Source: Hyphomonas atlantica corrig.
GTDB lineage: Bacteria; Pseudomonadota; Alphaproteobacteria; Caulobacterales; Hyphomonadaceae
Reading direction: 5' to 3'
Length of the DNA stretch: 64,000 nucleotides
Assembly (NCBI RefSeq): GCF_000682715.1
Contig: NZ_AWFH01000004.1
Coordinates: 1-64,000, forward strand
How positions within the stretch are numbered: the first letter of the stretch is position 1; each line of letters begins with the position of its first letter. A program made the position numbers and the translations under genes. The notes below the pieces were generated by a model. It ran no database searches and had not been told where the DNA came from. It worked only from the letters and a program-made list of their open reading frames with translations. Shown here piece after piece: positions 1 through 7,236 of the stretch.

Positions 1-31
1 ATTATGGAGCAGACTCACCATAAATGGTGAC
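1..31 (+). repeat. Left terminal inverted repeat of the transposon
   Basis: Thirty-one bases, identical to the reverse complement of 4018-4048. It begins ATTATGGAGCAGACTCACC and contains one copy of the TCACC-N6-GGTGA dyad at 15-30. Confidence 0.88.
15..30. promoter_or_regulatory. Dyad operator-like site 1 (in left end)
   Basis: TCACC-ATAAAT-GGTGA, one of five copies of the same 16-bp dyad in the transposon. It lies inside the terminal inverted repeat, 27 bp (centre to centre) from site 2. Confidence 0.6.
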
Positions 32-41
32 TTGATTTCCC

Positions 42-57
42 TCACCTTTTATGGTGA
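42..57. promoter_or_regulatory. Dyad operator-like site 2 (before first passenger gene)
   Basis: TCACC-TTTTAT-GGTGA. The right half-site GGTGA ends nine bases before the ATG at 67 and is the only Shine-Dalgarno-like sequence there. A protein bound to the DNA would block transcription start-up, and the same bases may serve in ribosome binding. Confidence 0.6.
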
Positions 58-66
58 TAGTCCGTC

Positions 67-540
67 ATGGAACAAGAAATCAGATACGACCGTCCGAACA
101 CCGTGTCTGGCCTCATCGCCAAACACAAAGAGCTTACCCAACTTCGCGACTGGCACAAAGCTGAGATCAAGCGGCTAAATGCTGGAATAGATCAGATTGC
201 GGCGGTCATCACGTTGTTTGACCCGTCCGCTGAAACGGAGGCCGCTAAGGAATTTGCGGAAAAAAGGAAACCAGCACGCCGAACCGGTATAAAGCGCTTT
301 CTTCTAGCTACATTGCGCGAAGCTTCCGAGCCGATGACCTCTCGCCAGCTTGCCGAACTATGGGCGCGGGAGCGTGACATGGGCGACGATCGCCAAACCA
401 TCAACAAAGCTCGAAGTAGCGTCACCTACGCGATAAAGGACTCTATAAAGCAGGGGCTCGTTGAGTGCGCGGGCCAGACTACTGACCACGGGGCATACGG
501 GCCTTACAAATTGTGGAAAGTAAAAGAAGGCGACGACTAG
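67..540 (+). CDS. Passenger protein: coiled coil plus winged-helix-like domain, unknown function
   Basis: 157 residues. Roughly residues 12-55 are a charged heptad-like segment ending in a VITLFDP motif, typical of a recurring alphaproteobacterial hypothetical family. Residues 70-155 contain a basic stretch (KRKPARRTGIKRF) followed by a helix-turn-helix/winged-helix-like pattern (MTSRQLAELWARER... INKARSSVTYAIKDSIKQGLVE), so DNA binding is plausible but inferred. The gene starts right inside the left end of the transposon, and the only ribosome-binding-like sequence is the GGTGA half of dyad site 2. I do not recognise a named function. It could be a transposition accessory protein or a regulator. 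Confidence 0.75.
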   Translation: MEQEIRYDRPNTVSGLIAKHKELTQLRDWHKAEIKRLNAGIDQIAAVITLFDPSAETEAAKEFAEKRKPARRTGIKRFLLATLREASEPMTSRQLAELWARERDMGDDRQTINKARSSVTYAIKDSIKQGLVECAGQTTDHGAYGPYKLWKVKEGDD

Positions 541-558
541 CGTCGCCCTCCTCTGTTG

Positions 559-750
559 CTACGCCATCGGGAAGTCCGGTGGCAGACTCATTGCTGGCGG
601 AATGTCGGGACAGATGCGCCCCTTCATAACGTCCGCAATGCGGCCCTGGTTGATCTGAAAGTACGACGCGATCCGCGCATAGTTGTACTTTTTCAACCTA
701 GCCAACTTGATCACCGGAACCATGTCCGGAGTTACCTTACGGTCTTTCAT
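559..750 (-). CDS. Small HTH-like passenger protein
   Basis: 63 residues from the ATG at 750, chosen because an AAAGGAAGG ribosome-binding sequence lies just upstream; a longer reading to 828 has no such site. The core (VPVIKLARLKKYNYARIASY followed by FQINQGRIADVMKGR) looks like a compact helix-turn-helix in which the second helix begins INQGRI. Small proteins of this pattern occur as uncharacterised genes in many proteobacteria. The end is proline-rich. It converges on the gene at 67-540. DNA binding is inferred from the pattern only. Confidence 0.6.
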   Translation of the reverse strand: MKDRKVTPDMVPVIKLARLKKYNYARIASYFQINQGRIADVMKGRICPDIPPAMSLPPDFPMA

Positions 751-828
751 AACCTTCCTTTCTGAAGGCTGCGACCGATCAGCGGGTTGACGGATTCGAA
801 AGAATGAATCACATACAACGTACTGCAC

Positions 829-991
829 TGTGATGTCCGCTGAGCGGTCATCTGTTGCGCTTCGAGACCATTCTCGGAGCGGGTGGAGCCGGGGCGCAAG
901 GCCCCGACCCCTGCCGCCCTAGTGGCGACTGCTGACGCAAACGGGTGGCTAGACCCGAGAGCACCAGGAAGCGGTCGTCATATGGGTTCCA
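829..991. other. Gene-free spacer inside the transposon
   Basis: No convincing gene. It contains a short GC-rich hairpin, GGGGC-GCAA-GGCCCC (about 893-907), with no following T-run. It may end transcription of the P63C gene that stops at 992, but this is weak. Confidence 0.35.
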
Positions 992-2011
992 TCAGTCGTC
1001 GTCCTCCAAATCATCGAACAGGTCGAGGTTCATAGCGCCGTGGGGATCCGCAGCACTAGGGAACGCTTTGTAGAAGTTCCTTTCGAATTGCCTCTTGTTG
1101 CTGGACAACCTGCCAATTGCAACGACTTGCCAAATATGCGCTCGTAACGCTGGCATGCCCACTTCATCACTTAGGAACTGGAACAGCTTATAGCGCCGTC
1201 CACCATTGGCGTAGATGACTGGATTTTTCTGCTCTAACTCCTCAAGGATTGCGCCGTTAGATGAGGCGAGCGGCTTATAGATGTATTTCCGGATCAGTTT
1301 GCCGAAGAATTTCGGATGCTTTGTAGATTTTGGGTTCAGGCGTTTCAGGCCGTAGATCTGATAGAAGGCTTCAAAAAGCTCGTTCGGGAACTCTTGTTCC
1401 CAACGGGCATACTCGTGCCGAATGAACTGTAGCCATAGTTCCCGGTACTCGTCCTTACGCTTATCCTCGATGAAGCCCGTTGCTTCATCGACTAGTGCGA
1501 TGATACCAATTTTAGCCGCAGCTCGGAGGATAATCTCAGCCTGATAGGCCAAAAACTGTTGAGAGGGGTGGAGCTGCGTTCGTCCAACCATCAACGCATC
1601 GCATAGATCAATCAGCACAGTGGCCTCATAGCCATGCGCCGGATCCCCGTTTAGTGGCTTGAAAACAATCGGGTTATCAATCTTTTCGCGAAGTTCTAGT
1701 GGGATAATGGATCCCAAGGATTTCCGGGAAAGCGTCTTCATCAGGGCGTTTCCGCCATCTGACTTCAAGCCAATCGCGCGTGCCATAGCTCGTTTGTGGA
1801 TCAGTCGCCTCCTGTCCTTGAGGACATAACAGTCGATCTCAATTTCACCGATGCGTAGGGAGCCTGCCGAGTTAGCCTCTGGCATCTTCCCCACGTCTTC
1901 AGGCTTTGCCCAACGGGCTTTAGCAGCAGCGCGCGCGATCTCAGAACGTCGGCTAACCGAAAGCGCAGCGGTACGAGCAAGGCCGCCCTTCTGTTGAGGA
2001 GTTTCAGTCAT
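992..2011 (-). CDS. P63C-domain protein (passenger)
   Basis: 339 residues from the ATG at 2011 (GGAAG upstream). The N-terminal ~40 residues are Ala/Arg-rich (GGLARTAALSVSRRSEIARAAAKARWAKP), an arrangement often seen in front of P63C domains. The C-terminal half (FIRHEYARWEQEFPNELFEAFYQIYGL, KHPKFFGKLIRKYIY, then NGGRRYKLFQFL and HIWQVV) matches the P63C domain, a module of phage and mobile-element proteins whose biochemical role is unknown. The acidic tail DLFDDLEDDD is notable. It lies downstream of the transposase on the same strand, but a tandem repeat at 2050-2080 suggests its own control. Confidence 0.75.
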   Translation of the reverse strand: MTETPQQKGGLARTAALSVSRRSEIARAAAKARWAKPEDVGKMPEANSAGSLRIGEIEIDCYVLKDRRRLIHKRAMARAIGLKSDGGNALMKTLSRKSLGSIIPLELREKIDNPIVFKPLNGDPAHGYEATVLIDLCDALMVGRTQLHPSQQFLAYQAEIILRAAAKIGIIALVDEATGFIEDKRKDEYRELWLQFIRHEYARWEQEFPNELFEAFYQIYGLKRLNPKSTKHPKFFGKLIRKYIYKPLASSNGAILEELEQKNPVIYANGGRRYKLFQFLSDEVGMPALRAHIWQVVAIGRLSSNKRQFERNFYKAFPSAADPHGAMNLDLFDDLEDDD

Positions 2012-2049
2012 ATCAGCTTCCAGCAAGCACCCGAATAAGAACAACCCCC

Positions 2050-2080
2050 GCATGCATGCAGGAGTCGCAGCATGCATGCA
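2050..2080. promoter_or_regulatory. Tandem 11-bp palindromic repeat before P63C gene
   Basis: GCATGCATGCA occurs twice (2050-2060 and 2070-2080), separated by nine bases, so the copies repeat every 20 bp, about two helical turns. It lies 39 bp upstream of the P63C start, in the gap after the transposase stop. This is what a double operator for a cooperative DNA-binding protein would look like. Confidence 0.5.
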
Positions 2081-2096
2081 AGCATTTTTTTCCGCT

Positions 2097-3059
2097 CTAT
2101 GCTTGCTGGCGCTGCCAGTATCCACACCACACGTCAGACTTTGGTGCGATAGCCGCTGCACTCACTATCATGGCAAACTGCGAGCCATTGGCGACGCGGC
2201 GGGCATCCTCGCGCCATGCCATCTCGCCAGCATAGGCGGCGAGGTACTTGCCAGCGATATGGTGGTGAGTGCCGATCTCGGCGCGGCGAACGCGGCTAAA
2301 GAAGCTCTCAGCTTGGTTGGTGCATGCGCCATCCAGTGAGTAAGCCTTCTGGTGATTGATCCGCTTTATCGGGAAGTGAGCCGCCAGCTTGTCCCAATGC
2401 GAAGCCTCGTCAGCGTGGACAGTCGCGCCAGTGGCAACGTTCGCTTTGGCGGCAGCGACGCCTTCCGCTTCAGATACGCCCACATGCGTCAGGGTACGGC
2501 CGCCACGTTCACGCATGACAACAACGACTTGGCGCTTGCCAGACTGGTGGATTTTCTTGCGGCGGTCCTTGCGATCTTCGCGCTTGTTGGCAGGCTTTAC
2601 GTAGCCACCGAAATAAGCGCCATCGACCTCAACGTCTCCACTGAGCGCGCCAGCGTCACGGGCAAGCCCTATCGCTTCACGGCATTTGTGTAGCAGCACG
2701 AAGGCGGTCTTGTAATCAATATCCAAATCGCGGGACAGTTGGAGTGCGGAATATCCTTTTGCGCCATTGGTGAAGATGGCAATCGCGCCGAGAATGTCGC
2801 GGATGCTCAGCTTGCGGCTGTGAAAGATCGTGCCGCTGGTCCGGCTGAACTGCTTTGAACAGCCCTTGCACTTCCAGACTGGACGGCTCTTAAGGTTGTA
2901 GTGCTCAAGGCAGCCGCACTCAGGGCAGACCGGCTCACCATCTGTGTCCGCCCAGCGGATCATGCGGAAGGCCTTCTCGGCATCCTGGTCCGACATGCGG
3001 AGGATTTTCGCCAGTGAAAGCGTCTTTGCTGCGGGAGAGAGAAGGAAGTGCTGAGCCAT
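2097..3059 (-). CDS. IS1595-family (ISXO2-like) transposase
   Basis: 320 residues, full length for the family. Residues 45-67 are a zinc ribbon (CPEC ... CKGC). An ISXO2-like catalytic domain follows: Asp146 in VEVDGAYFGG, Asp217 in VHADEASHWD, and Asn248/Glu251 in TNQAESFFSR, consistent with the DDN-type active site known for this family. A basic linker (KPANKREDRKDRRKK) follows the first Asp. The ATG at 3059 was chosen because the family begins just before the zinc ribbon; longer in-frame readings run through the dyad operators. The GGTGA half of dyad site 3 lies seven bases upstream of the ATG and may serve as ribosome-binding site. It is divergent from the DUF6471 gene. Confidence 0.92.
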   Translation of the reverse strand: MAQHFLLSPAAKTLSLAKILRMSDQDAEKAFRMIRWADTDGEPVCPECGCLEHYNLKSRPVWKCKGCSKQFSRTSGTIFHSRKLSIRDILGAIAIFTNGAKGYSALQLSRDLDIDYKTAFVLLHKCREAIGLARDAGALSGDVEVDGAYFGGYVKPANKREDRKDRRKKIHQSGKRQVVVVMRERGGRTLTHVGVSEAEGVAAAKANVATGATVHADEASHWDKLAAHFPIKRINHQKAYSLDGACTNQAESFFSRVRRAEIGTHHHIAGKYLAAYAGEMAWREDARRVANGSQFAMIVSAAAIAPKSDVWCGYWQRQQA

Positions 3060-3066
3060 TTCGTAA

Positions 3067-3082
3067 TCACCATTTTTGGTGA
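3067..3082. promoter_or_regulatory. Dyad operator-like site 3 (transposase start)
   Basis: TCACC-ATTTTT-GGTGA in the 97-bp gap between the transposase and DUF6471 starts. One half-site overlaps the probable ribosome-binding position of the transposase. Confidence 0.6.
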
Positions 3083-3124
3083 TTTGAATATGGCCATTTA
3101 CGGAATCGCCGTCAAGTGGTATTT

Positions 3125-3140
3125 TCACCGAAAATGGTGA
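3125..3140. promoter_or_regulatory. Dyad operator-like site 4 (DUF6471 side)
   Basis: TCACC-GAAAAT-GGTGA, 58 bp centre to centre from site 3 and just upstream of the GGAGG (3148-3152) of the DUF6471 gene. The pair could control both divergent genes. Confidence 0.6.
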
Positions 3141-3156
3141 TTTGTTTGGAGGTCCC

Positions 3157-3417
3157 ATGACACTGGTAAAGTCGAGCCCGCCACCCAAGGCGCAACCGCG
3201 CAAGGATGCCCCCATTAATGCAGAGTACCAGGAGAAGGCAAAGGCCCTGCTTCGCGACATGATCGAAGGGGATTACGCCATGCTCGCTGAAAAGCTGAAT
3301 GCTATGGGTATAGAGATAACCGCTCGCGGGCTGGAGAACAAAATTAGTCGCGGCGGGTTTTCGGCCGCATTTCTTCTCCAGTGCCGAGATGCTCTTGGCC
3401 TGCAGGTCATAAGGTGA
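3157..3417 (+). CDS. DUF6471 HTH-like protein, candidate repressor of the transposon
   Basis: 86 residues from the ATG at 3157; GGAGG lies at 3148-3152. The body (residues about 22-84) reads as a compact five-helix HTH: YQEKAKALLRDM, then YAMLAEKLNAMG, ITARGLENKISRGGF and LLQCRDALGL. The motif LENKISRG-F is the hallmark of DUF6471. The family has no established function, but its resemblance to XRE-type helix-turn-helix proteins is clear by eye. Because it is divergent from the transposase and flanked by dyads 3 and 4, I infer that it is an autoregulatory repressor that may also bind the copies in the transposon ends. Confidence 0.8.
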   Translation: MTLVKSSPPPKAQPRKDAPINAEYQEKAKALLRDMIEGDYAMLAEKLNAMGIEITARGLENKISRGGFSAAFLLQCRDALGLQVIR

Positions 3418-3458
3418 AGGTCTGGACTCTGCGGTTGAATTAAGCGTCACTTGCAGTT

Positions 3459-3491
3459 GAGCCCGCGCTGATTCGTGGTCAGGGCGGGCTC
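3459..3491 (+). terminator. Hairpin after DUF6471 gene
   Basis: GAGCCCGC (3459-3466) pairs with GCGGGCTC (3484-3491) across a 17-base loop. No good T-run follows, so terminator activity is uncertain. Confidence 0.35.
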
Positions 3492-3504
3492 TGTCTGTAA
3501 CCCC

Positions 3505-3568
3505 GGAAGGGGCTTGGTGTGCACAGGTTATTCGTGGATTGTAACGCCTGACTCGTCAAGCCCCCTCC
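3505..3568 (+). promoter_or_regulatory. Leader with two mutually exclusive hairpins before the Cas2-like gene
   Basis: Bases 3501-3512 can fold as CCCC-GGAA-GGGG. Alternatively 3505-3516 (GGAAGGGGCTTG) can pair with 3557-3568 (CAAGCCCCCTCC), 11 of 12 positions. The two folds share the GGGG and exclude each other, as in attenuators. The downstream stem ends 20 bases before the ATG at 3589 and leaves the AGGAAAGG ribosome-binding site free. Confidence 0.35.
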
Positions 3569-3588
3569 AAGCAGGAAAGGGCCAACAC

Positions 3589-3870
3589 ATGGCCATATAT
3601 CTGATTGCTTACGATCTTCGCAACGAAACGGGATCACACGATTACCAGCCTCTCTGGGATCGATTGGAAGAGCTCGATTGTCACAAGACCCAATATTCAG
3701 TCTGGTTGGGAAACTTCAGCAATTCGGCAAAGGAAGTGCATGATCACCTCAAAACCTATATGGACGATGACGACCGCCTGATGGTGAGCGAGTTCACCAA
3801 GTATCATTGGTATTCCAACGCCATCGGCGGAACTAATGAATGGCTGAAGAAAAATCCCCCTCAGCGGTAG
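3589..3870 (+). CDS. Solitary Cas2-like / VapD-like small protein (passenger)
   Basis: 93 residues; ATG at 3589 with AGGAAAGG upstream. It opens with the Cas2-type first strand and acidic residue (MAIYLIAYDLRNE), followed by a helix (YQPLWDRLEELDC), a second strand with the TQYSVWLG pattern and a later strand MVSEFTKYHWYS. This fits the small ferredoxin-like fold shared by Cas2 and VapD-type mRNA interferases and their relatives. No Cas1, repeats or spacers are nearby, so it is not part of a CRISPR adaptation module. Asp9 is kept where Cas2 nucleases have their metal-binding Asp, but activity cannot be judged from sequence. It may be a toxin-like nuclease or a structural accessory of the transposon. 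Confidence 0.7.
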   Translation: MAIYLIAYDLRNETGSHDYQPLWDRLEELDCHKTQYSVWLGNFSNSAKEVHDHLKTYMDDDDRLMVSEFTKYHWYSNAIGGTNEWLKKNPPQR

Positions 3871-3955
3871 GTCTGCGAGCACCCCTTGATACCTCTCCGA
3901 TCTTGATCGATATGCCGAGCGCCTTGGCCATGATGTGCAGAATATAGTTTCTCAT
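3833..3955 (-). CDS. Possible 40-residue protein, unknown
   Basis: An ATG at 3955 is preceded by GGAGAG four bases upstream, and the frame stays open to 3833, overlapping the 3' end of the Cas2-like gene on the other strand. The product begins MRNYILHIMAKALGISIKIG and ends in a basic/acidic tail. It would be a very small accessory gene at the transposon's right end. It could be chance, and the support is the ribosome-binding site alone. Confidence 0.28.
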   Translation of the reverse strand: MRNYILHIMAKALGISIKIGEVSRGARRPTAEGDFSSAIH

Positions 3956-3971
3956 TTCACTCTCCATACTG

Positions 3972-3994
3972 AGGCCCGGCACCATGCTGGGCCT
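3972..3994 (+). terminator. Hairpin near the right transposon end
   Basis: AGGCCCGGC (3972-3980) pairs with GCTGGGCCT (3986-3994), eight of nine positions plus a G-T pair, with a five-base loop. There is no T-run. It could stop read-through from the Cas2-like gene into the flank, or from host DNA into the element. Confidence 0.35.
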
Positions 3995-4017
3995 TGAAGT
4001 TCCATAAATTACAAGTG

Positions 4018-4048
4018 GTCACCATTTATGGTGAGTCTGCTCCATAAT
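4018..4048 (-). repeat. Right terminal inverted repeat of the transposon
   Basis: Perfect inverted copy of bases 1-31, ending in GTCTGCTCCATAAT. It carries a dyad copy at 4019-4034. The host sequence resumes at 4049 with GCCGCAGG. Confidence 0.88.
4019..4034. promoter_or_regulatory. Dyad operator-like site 5 (in right end)
   Basis: TCACC-ATTTAT-GGTGA, inside the right terminal inverted repeat and the mirror image of site 1. Confidence 0.6.
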
Positions 4049-4192
4049 GCCGCAGGACCGTACACCTCCCGCAAAGCCCATCCTGTCCCTGACCCCACAA
4101 CCAGAACGGCACCTGATCCGGCTCCTGTGAGGGCAGAGGGAGAGTATGGGACGCGCGGGTATCAGACGGATTGGGGGCGGTAACTTGCCGTC

Positions 4193-6036: not shown

Positions 6037-6138
6037 GTTTCACCTCAGGCACGACTCATTGAAATCATAGATCAATATTTGTGTTCACCAAAGATATTCG
6101 ATCGATTCGCTATAAAGGCATGTGGTTTGGATTCACCC

Positions 6139-7236
6139 CTAACTCATCCACCTCAGCACCCGCGCCTCAATCGGGTTCGCGAAATCCCGCCCCTCGGTCC
6201 GGCATTCCGTCCACTCACGTTTTAGCCGCTGGTACCATTTGGCCTGGATGTCGATGTCGTCGATCCACATCATCGCCTTCTGGTGGGCCATGCCCTGGTT
6301 TTGCAGGTCCACCATGTCGCCATCCTGGCGCAGGAATTTGCGGGCCATCGGCTTGGCGATCGGCACGGCGAGGTGGAGCAGCGGCGCGCCGGTCCACCAG
6401 GTGAACTGGGTGATCCGTGTACGTTTCGGGGCCTCTGGCGTCAGGCAGGTAAGCGTCAGGAGGCGCGCCTTGTCGTTCGAGATGATTTCCCAGCGATAGC
6501 CGGGCAGCTGAAACCGGATTTCGGTTTCCACATCATCGCCAAACACCCAGCGATAGAGTTTCGAGTTCGAGCTGGGCGGGTGACGGTCAATCGCCCAGCC
6601 GCGCGTCGTGGGCACAAAGGGCTTTTCCTTCAGCTTCAGGCCCACCGAGGGCGGGCGCCACCACCATTGATTGTGCACGAACGGAACATGGGCCGGATCC
6701 ATCAGGCCGACCACGGCATCATCCATATGCGCGTTGAACACATCATGGATGACGAAACCGGGCTTGTCCGGCAGCGGGCCGAATTCCGGCGGGGGCACGA
6801 CCGGCGGCTCCGCGCTGCGGGGGTTGTGCGCGACATAGAGATAGACCGCGCCATTGGCCTCATGCACCGGATAGCGACGCACCTTGACCTTTGACGGGTC
6901 ATAGGGGCTGTCGTCTGTAAGGGATGGCATCAGCTTGCAGCCGCCATCCGTGCCGAAGCGCCAGCCATGATAAGGGCATTGCAGCGTCCACTCGCCATCG
7001 GTTTCCAGCTGCTGGCCCGCCGATAGCGGCACAAGCCGGTGCGGGCAGATATCGCGCAGGGCGAACGCCTCCCCTGCCGGAGTGCGGCCGACCACGACGG
7101 GTTCGCCCAGCACCATGATGCGCTGCTGCTTGCCGGGCTTCAGCTCATCCGAGGGCGCGGCCAGATACCAGCTATCCGTCAGGAAGCCATTATCGGTGAT
7201 GCCCTGCTTGGGCGCATTGTGCTGTGTGTCGGGCAT
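6139..7236 (-). CDS. Rieske-type aromatic ring-hydroxylating oxygenase, alpha subunit
   Basis: 365 residues. An N-terminal Rieske [2Fe-2S] domain is clear: Cys64-x-His66 (CPHRLVPLS) and Cys87-x2-His90 (CPYHGWRF). The C-terminal catalytic domain carries a DAVVGLMDPAHVPFVH segment that supplies the mononuclear iron ligands. Such enzymes hydroxylate or demethylate aromatic or polycyclic substrates with O2, using electrons from a separate reductase that is not in the window. The substrate cannot be told. It is divergent from an AbgT transporter across a region with a 28-bp inverted repeat, so uptake and oxidation of one compound may be co-regulated. Confidence 0.88.
   Translation of the reverse strand: MPDTQHNAPKQGITDNGFLTDSWYLAAPSDELKPGKQQRIMVLGEPVVVGRTPAGEAFALRDICPHRLVPLSAGQQLETDGEWTLQCPYHGWRFGTDGGCKLMPSLTDDSPYDPSKVKVRRYPVHEANGAVYLYVAHNPRSAEPPVVPPPEFGPLPDKPGFVIHDVFNAHMDDAVVGLMDPAHVPFVHNQWWWRPPSVGLKLKEKPFVPTTRGWAIDRHPPSSNSKLYRWVFGDDVETEIRFQLPGYRWEIISNDKARLLTLTCLTPEAPKRTRITQFTWWTGAPLLHLAVPIAKPMARKFLRQDGDMVDLQNQGMAHQKAMMWIDDIDIQAKWYQRLKREWTECRTEGRDFANPIEARVLRWMS

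Follow-up and report, generated by a model that had tools for sequence, protein, structure and literature searches.

A DUF6471 protein as candidate repressor of the transposase promoter and both ends of an IS1595-family transposon in Hyphomonas atlantica

The window analyzed here, the first 64,000 nucleotides of contig NZ_AWFH01000004.1 of Hyphomonas atlantica, begins with a 4-kb IS1595-family transposon that has a zinc-ribbon DDE transposase and terminal inverted repeats. The transposase gene (2097-3059, reverse strand; Pfam DDE_Tnp_IS1595, 6.9e-43, and Zn_ribbon_IS1595, 1.4e-12; NCBIfam, 1.8e-45) is divergent from a gene for an 86-residue DUF6471 protein (3157-3417, forward strand; Pfam DUF6471, 2.5e-18), for which we propose the role of a CI/XRE-like repressor. 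At the far end lies g1 (67-540, forward strand), which a preliminary description of this DNA had labelled the first cargo gene; profile matches identify g1 in 54 of 71 distinct loci, which makes it part of the core and not cargo. Relatives L018 to L035 share one arrangement, which runs from one end through DUF6471, the divergent transposase and g1 to the other end. The terminal repeats are 24 bp long in relatives. In the window the g1-side copy occupies 1-20 (forward strand), the window start being also the contig start, and its outer CGGC, known from relatives, begins four bases earlier and falls outside the contig; the inverted copy lies at 4029-4052 (reverse strand), with the DUF6471-side boundary of the element placed at 4052, again from relatives. 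A genome scan identified 24 loci related to the element. DUF6471 goes as a rule with this transposase: in 299 genomes of the order the transposase adjoins 27 of the 30 best DUF6471 loci, and 8 of the 40 stretches retrieved carry no IS1595 transposase of this kind. Among 36 relatives with detected ends, 34 show an 8-bp target duplication matching at 8 of 8 positions, in a search that itself demanded 7 of 8; one flank of the window element is off the contig.

Five copies of the dyad TCACC-N6-GGTGA, at 15-30, 42-57, 3067-3082, 3125-3140 and 4019-4034 (dyads 1 to 5), were confirmed, and no further exact copy occurs in the window. Allowing up to one mismatch raises the count in the window to nine, against a mean of 1.99 and a maximum of 6 in 100 shuffles. 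The dyad is not common elsewhere in the genome: a scan of all 3.6 Mb (63 contigs) recovered 15 exact copies, five of them inside this element, and no instance of a backward control pattern, and each of the ten copies outside the element lies within an open (stop-to-stop) frame of 340-797 codons. Two copies overlap ribosome-binding positions, as had been described. Dyad 2, a candidate operator preceding g1 that has equivalents in L018, L020, L139 and L140, places GGTGAT 8 nt before the g1 ATG (67), and dyad 3, a candidate operator covering the transposase gene's predicted start and its ribosome-binding site, stops 7 nt before the transposase ATG (3059). Dyad 4 is a candidate operator upstream of the transposase -35 and preceding the DUF6471 gene. 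Between dyads 3 and 4 lies the predicted transposase promoter TTGACG-17-CATATT (3087-3115, reverse strand), the single promoter-like match in a scan of 1-4060, a yield not above that of shuffles (mean 2.6). Dyads 1 and 5 had been placed in the terminal repeats, which holds for their outer CACC, part of the family-wide repeat; the inner half is class-specific and lies beyond it. Dyad 1 is thus a composite of the CACC of the g1-side repeat and an operator half GGTGA, and dyad 5 is the composite candidate operator of the DUF6471-side end.

The dyads were then compared across relatives, where class A comprises elements with an exact [CA]ACC-N6-GGT[GT] within 140 nt before the transposase and class B lumps everything else, outgroups included; class-B half-sites read GATG/CATC. 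Class-A relatives usually carry two copies around the transposase promoter, at about -80 and about -20 from the ATG, flanking a TTGAC hexamer that stands at the place equivalent to that of the window, and L024 and L140 carry a single exact copy before the transposase. The five-copy layout is repeated in L018 and L020 at 16 bp and in L139 at 14 bp. On the DUF6471 tree, class A requires a single change (support 100/100; 25 rows, representing 25 of the 71 distinct loci), and one change again suffices with 66 rows (L037, L107, L118, L123 and L124 omitted). The transposase itself might bind the dyads as extended end sites and so repress its own promoter, as the overlap of the end dyads with the conserved 24-bp repeat would allow, but class A needs three changes on the 25-row transposase tree, on which L032 is a flagged long branch, and a single class-A clade is rejected (approximately unbiased (AU) test, p 1.8e-6); once L139 and L140 had joined the set and L094 had been dropped, the log-likelihood difference stood at 99.

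Two further proteins of the element could in principle read the dyads. The g1 protein is the product of a core gene that starts next to an end dyad, and its structural model combines a long helix with a winged-helix-like part (predicted local distance difference test (pLDDT) 81.2, predicted template modelling score (pTM) 0.51); its fold search returned weak matches, many of them winged-helix (best E 0.02). Yet class A changes six times on the g1 tree (AU p 5.5e-5; long branches flagged). The other is the product of a small helix-turn-helix (HTH)-like gene at 559-750 (reverse strand), which has a weak Sigma70_r4 match and nothing else, and this gene was not detected in six window-clade elements (L018, L022, L027, L032, L035 and L091, five of them class A) nor in L140. 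A pair of elements from one genus separates DUF6471 from the transposase and g1 most directly: L091 and L139 are 90% identical in transposase and 85.5% in g1, but their DUF6471 proteins share 44% identity and their dyads differ. In L139 the promoter, the region before g1 and both ends all carry GGTG dyads, the inner halves of the ends reading GGTGA; in L091 the promoter sites are of the GATG type and each end reads GATGT. The two elements have an identical insertion site in one host gene, so that a host factor is unlikely to be the cause of the difference. We consider recognition of the dyads by the transposase to be very improbable, and recognition by g1 or the small HTH protein a shade more so.

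Comparison of the terminal ends revealed a corresponding pattern. In 17 other family elements, which keep the repeat, conservation drops at about base 24-25 (...CACCA) and little is conserved beyond it, a further point against extended transposase sites, whereas the 22 elements nearest the window have a further patch of conservation around bases 30-34 of both ends, stronger on the DUF6471 side, which is the inner dyad half. Past this patch the 22 elements show little conservation, apart from a T at base 36 of the g1-side end. At the DUF6471-side end the inner half reads GGT in 15 of 16 DUF6471-A elements versus 0 of 6 DUF6471-B elements (Fisher 9e-5), and at the g1-side end in 14 of 16 versus 0 of 6 (Fisher 4e-4), neither value being corrected for kinship. 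The B elements have GAT instead in five of six cases at the DUF6471-side end and in four of six at the g1-side end; among 19 other elements, GAT occurs at one end in L092, L100 and L127. Since the inner half-site is tied to the regulator and the outer CACC comes from the family-wide repeat, the end dyad is composite. As a separate observation, the repeat's otherwise fixed CACC is CCGC at both ends of L091, the sole case among the 22 window-clade elements.

These patterns bear on two other explanations. DUF6471 could bind all of the sites while those at the ends have no role beyond the g1 promoter and the symmetry of the repeats and leave transposition unaffected, and a TTGATT hexamer between the g1-side end dyad and g1 is in keeping with this. 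However, the window has no gene start beside the DUF6471-side end, yet all but one of the 16 class-A elements keep the inner half-site there, and immediately past this half-site conservation drops; we regard this explanation as unlikely. The dyads could instead work at the RNA level, forming hairpins that mask the ribosome-binding site on transcripts that run into the element from outside, given that GGTGA lies at the ribosome-binding position and that the predicted fold of the transposase leader reaches -9.9 kcal/mol (z -2.8). The other two leaders fold no better than shuffles (z -0.79 and -0.14), and the site above the -35 and the DUF6471-side end site lie outside the transposase leader, although both ends also take part in the change of half-site class. 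We consider hairpins very improbable as the general explanation; a hairpin at the transposase leader is possible as an added role.

The DUF6471 protein was modelled as four helices (pLDDT 85.6, pTM 0.66), of which helix 56-65 is the presumed recognition helix. The Phage_CI_repr family matches 7 of 19 DUF6471 members (best 5.1e-4), the window protein not being among the matches listed, and a search of the PDB with the single DUF6471 sequence returned nothing and with a profile only weak, unrelated-looking matches. Two residues that lie within the presumed recognition helix or immediately ahead of it follow the dyad class: all 16 class-A proteins have G at position 58, where all 57 others have N or S, and I or M at position 54, where all 57 others have E or D. 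As the residue classes are also clades, this pattern is suggestive rather than proof. Sites also occur at DUF6471 genes that stand alone, with no IS1595 transposase of this kind in the fetched stretch: CA[CT]C-N6-G[AG]TG was found within 230 nt upstream of four of nine such hits (eight genes, L121 giving two hits), compared with 31 of 932 control windows and with 30 of 80 among all DUF6471 hits. The solo genes of L121 and L122 lie in open frames of 191 and 177 codons within 14-kb stretches in which no such transposase was found, and paired dyads of the CATC/CACC type lie upstream of them, on the DUF6471-gene strand (L121, about 6137-6240; L122, about 6269-6415).

Three relatives of the transposase lack DUF6471 (L142, L143 and L144). 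In L142 and L143, whose transposases are 66 and 64% identical to that of the window, an HTH_3/HTH_31 (XRE) gene occupies the DUF6471 position and CAACG-N5-CGTTG dyads lie at the transposase promoter. L143 has a further CAACG-N5-CGTTG adjoining the repeat of its g1-side end but lacks one at the opposite end. In the fetched stretch of L142 no terminal repeats were found. The dyad thus appears to follow whichever regulator stands in that position.

The preliminary description had suggested that one protein of the element reads all five sites, and the comparison supports this, as promoter dyads and the inner halves of the ends change together, and do so with DUF6471 instead of the transposase, g1 or the small HTH protein. 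On these sequence comparisons we think it probable that DUF6471 is a CI/XRE-like repressor of the transposase, of itself and of g1 that also sits on the transposon ends through dyads of 4-N6-4 type. Encoded divergently from the transposase, DUF6471 would form a small dimeric repressor binding 14-16 bp dyads with a 4-N6-4 core. Two of its sites would flank the transposase promoter, one above the -35 and before DUF6471 and the other over the start and ribosome-binding site; one would precede g1, and one would span the inner edge of each terminal repeat, using the repeat's fixed CACC as the outer half-site. With sites of the same protein at promoters and ends, DUF6471 would repress the transposase, itself and g1 and would also occupy DNA shared in part with the family-conserved repeat. 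The sequences show where the sites lie, here and in relatives, and that they vary together with DUF6471; we infer the dimer, its binding, repression and competition with the transposase at the ends, where occupancy may limit transposition.

Several observations weigh against this interpretation. The classes were defined after the sequences had been seen; exact CATC-N6-GATG precedes the transposase in only three of the six class-B window-clade elements (L030, L035 and L091); and the finer GGTGA and GGTTA types are mixed within elements (L022, L023, L025, L026, L028, L031 and L033), which is why only GGT and GAT were compared. Independent contrasts on the transposase tree number two on supported branches and three on all branches (sign test p 0.5), too few for the sign test to have power. 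The DUF6471 gene adjoins the promoter dyads and could travel with them without any contact, and this linkage is broken nowhere but at the ends, in the solo genes and in the residue pattern, the residues themselves also following clades. At the ends, class-A L027 has GATGA on one side and neither half-site on the other, and L022 lacks the half-site at its g1 end; class-B L030 and L034 have no GAT at their g1 ends, one end of class-B L021 reads CACC-N4-GGTGA, and the ends of class-B elements do not form symmetric dyads. Four of the nine solo hits lack even a loose site, and the strict site of L115 has a GC-richer centre. PDB fold matches of the DUF6471 model place HipB and other XRE proteins on top, but weakly (best E 0.72) and with unrelated folds among them. 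Finally, in L144 (transposase 47% identical) neither an obvious regulator nor a CAACG-N5-CGTTG dyad was seen.

Some assignments in these comparisons were made individually. L033, which has a broken transposase frame and promoter dyads, was assigned to class A by hand. The contrast and end tests include L139 and L140 and omit L094, and for L139 the label A at the g1-side end was assigned manually from the sequence. End labels omit the duplicates L117 and L128 as well as L093, L094, L096, L107 and L124, in which no convincing repeats were present; the repeat search found none for L036, L037, L102, L109, L118, L123 and L125, and the ends of the window element, L026 and L033 were set by separate inspection of the sequence rather than by the automatic repeat search. 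The end profile of the other family elements was built from 17 of 19, with L099 and L126 left out owing to a one-base shift.

Lambdoid CI and 434-type repressors are HTH dimers that act on short dyads and define immunity classes, the 434 operator having a 4-N6-4 layout, while the phage Mu repressor has sites that connect control of the transposition genes with the DNA used in transposition, although the Mu operator is internal and is not known to form a composite with an end. Compared with the lambdoid repressors, DUF6471 is here a single small domain of 86 residues with weak sequence kinship. A literature search for repressors that bind terminal repeats gave no match, and the name DUF6471 was not found in the literature searched. 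According to the retrieved text of PMC12428005, InsA of IS1 is a repressor of the transposase promoter that also competes for the terminal repeats at the two ends; as described there, it resembles the arrangement proposed here in being a transposon-encoded repressor for the promoter and both ends, which in our case is deduced from co-variation. InsA has the DNA-binding domain of its transposase, whereas DUF6471 is a separate gene of a different Pfam family from the transposase and its inner half-site lies inward of the family-wide repeat. IS1595-family elements such as ISNha5 carry passenger genes that include a transcription regulator (PMC11891212), and 8-bp duplications are usual in this family (PMC8101967); these elements share with ours the transposase family and the presence of a regulator gene, a candidate one in our case, and the retrieved portions of both articles do not mention operators in the ends. 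What would be new is that a CI/XRE-like repressor, encoded separately, has gained an operator along the inner edge of the repeats, and that repressor and operator are apparently exchanged as one module.

This gives DUF6471 a testable function and a candidate recognition code. L091 and L139 form a natural swap pair, in which the repressor and the inner edges of both ends differ while the transposases are 90% identical, and this makes the tie between silencing of transposon genes and the ends directly testable. More tentatively, these transposons may form phage-like immunity groups, in which each replacement of the repressor gene (DUF6471 A, DUF6471 B or XRE) brings with it a recoding of the promoter operators and of both ends, although we hold this to be doubtful. 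If such groups exist, an element of another group could establish itself where a resident silences its own kind at ends and promoter.

The element carries two cargo genes. A Cas2-like gene at 3589-3870 (forward strand; Pfam CRISPR_Cas2, 3.1e-7; PADLOC Cas2_II, 4.7e-6) encodes what we take to be possibly a VapD/Cas2-type protein; PADLOC gave no match for the DUF6471 protein or the transposase. A P63C-domain gene lies at 992-2011 (reverse strand; Pfam P63C, 1.1e-18), and its product is near phage family phrog_2384 (3.1e-96) and occurs, among the 71 loci, only in the window, L025 and L027. Plasmid searches at the DNA and protein levels returned only distant transposases (at most 57.2% protein identity), and viral contigs yielded one distant locus. 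Of the 38 elements whose ends were mapped, at least 16 (L019, L021, L022, L027, L029, L030, L035, L091, L092, L095, L104, L120, L127, L129, L139 and L140) are inserted at one spot, the codons of FLDE[LF]PEF in a YifB/ComM-like Mg-chelatase ATPase gene, two flanking peptides having been checked against families. Insertions at this spot occur in both orientations, and the element family seems to favour it.

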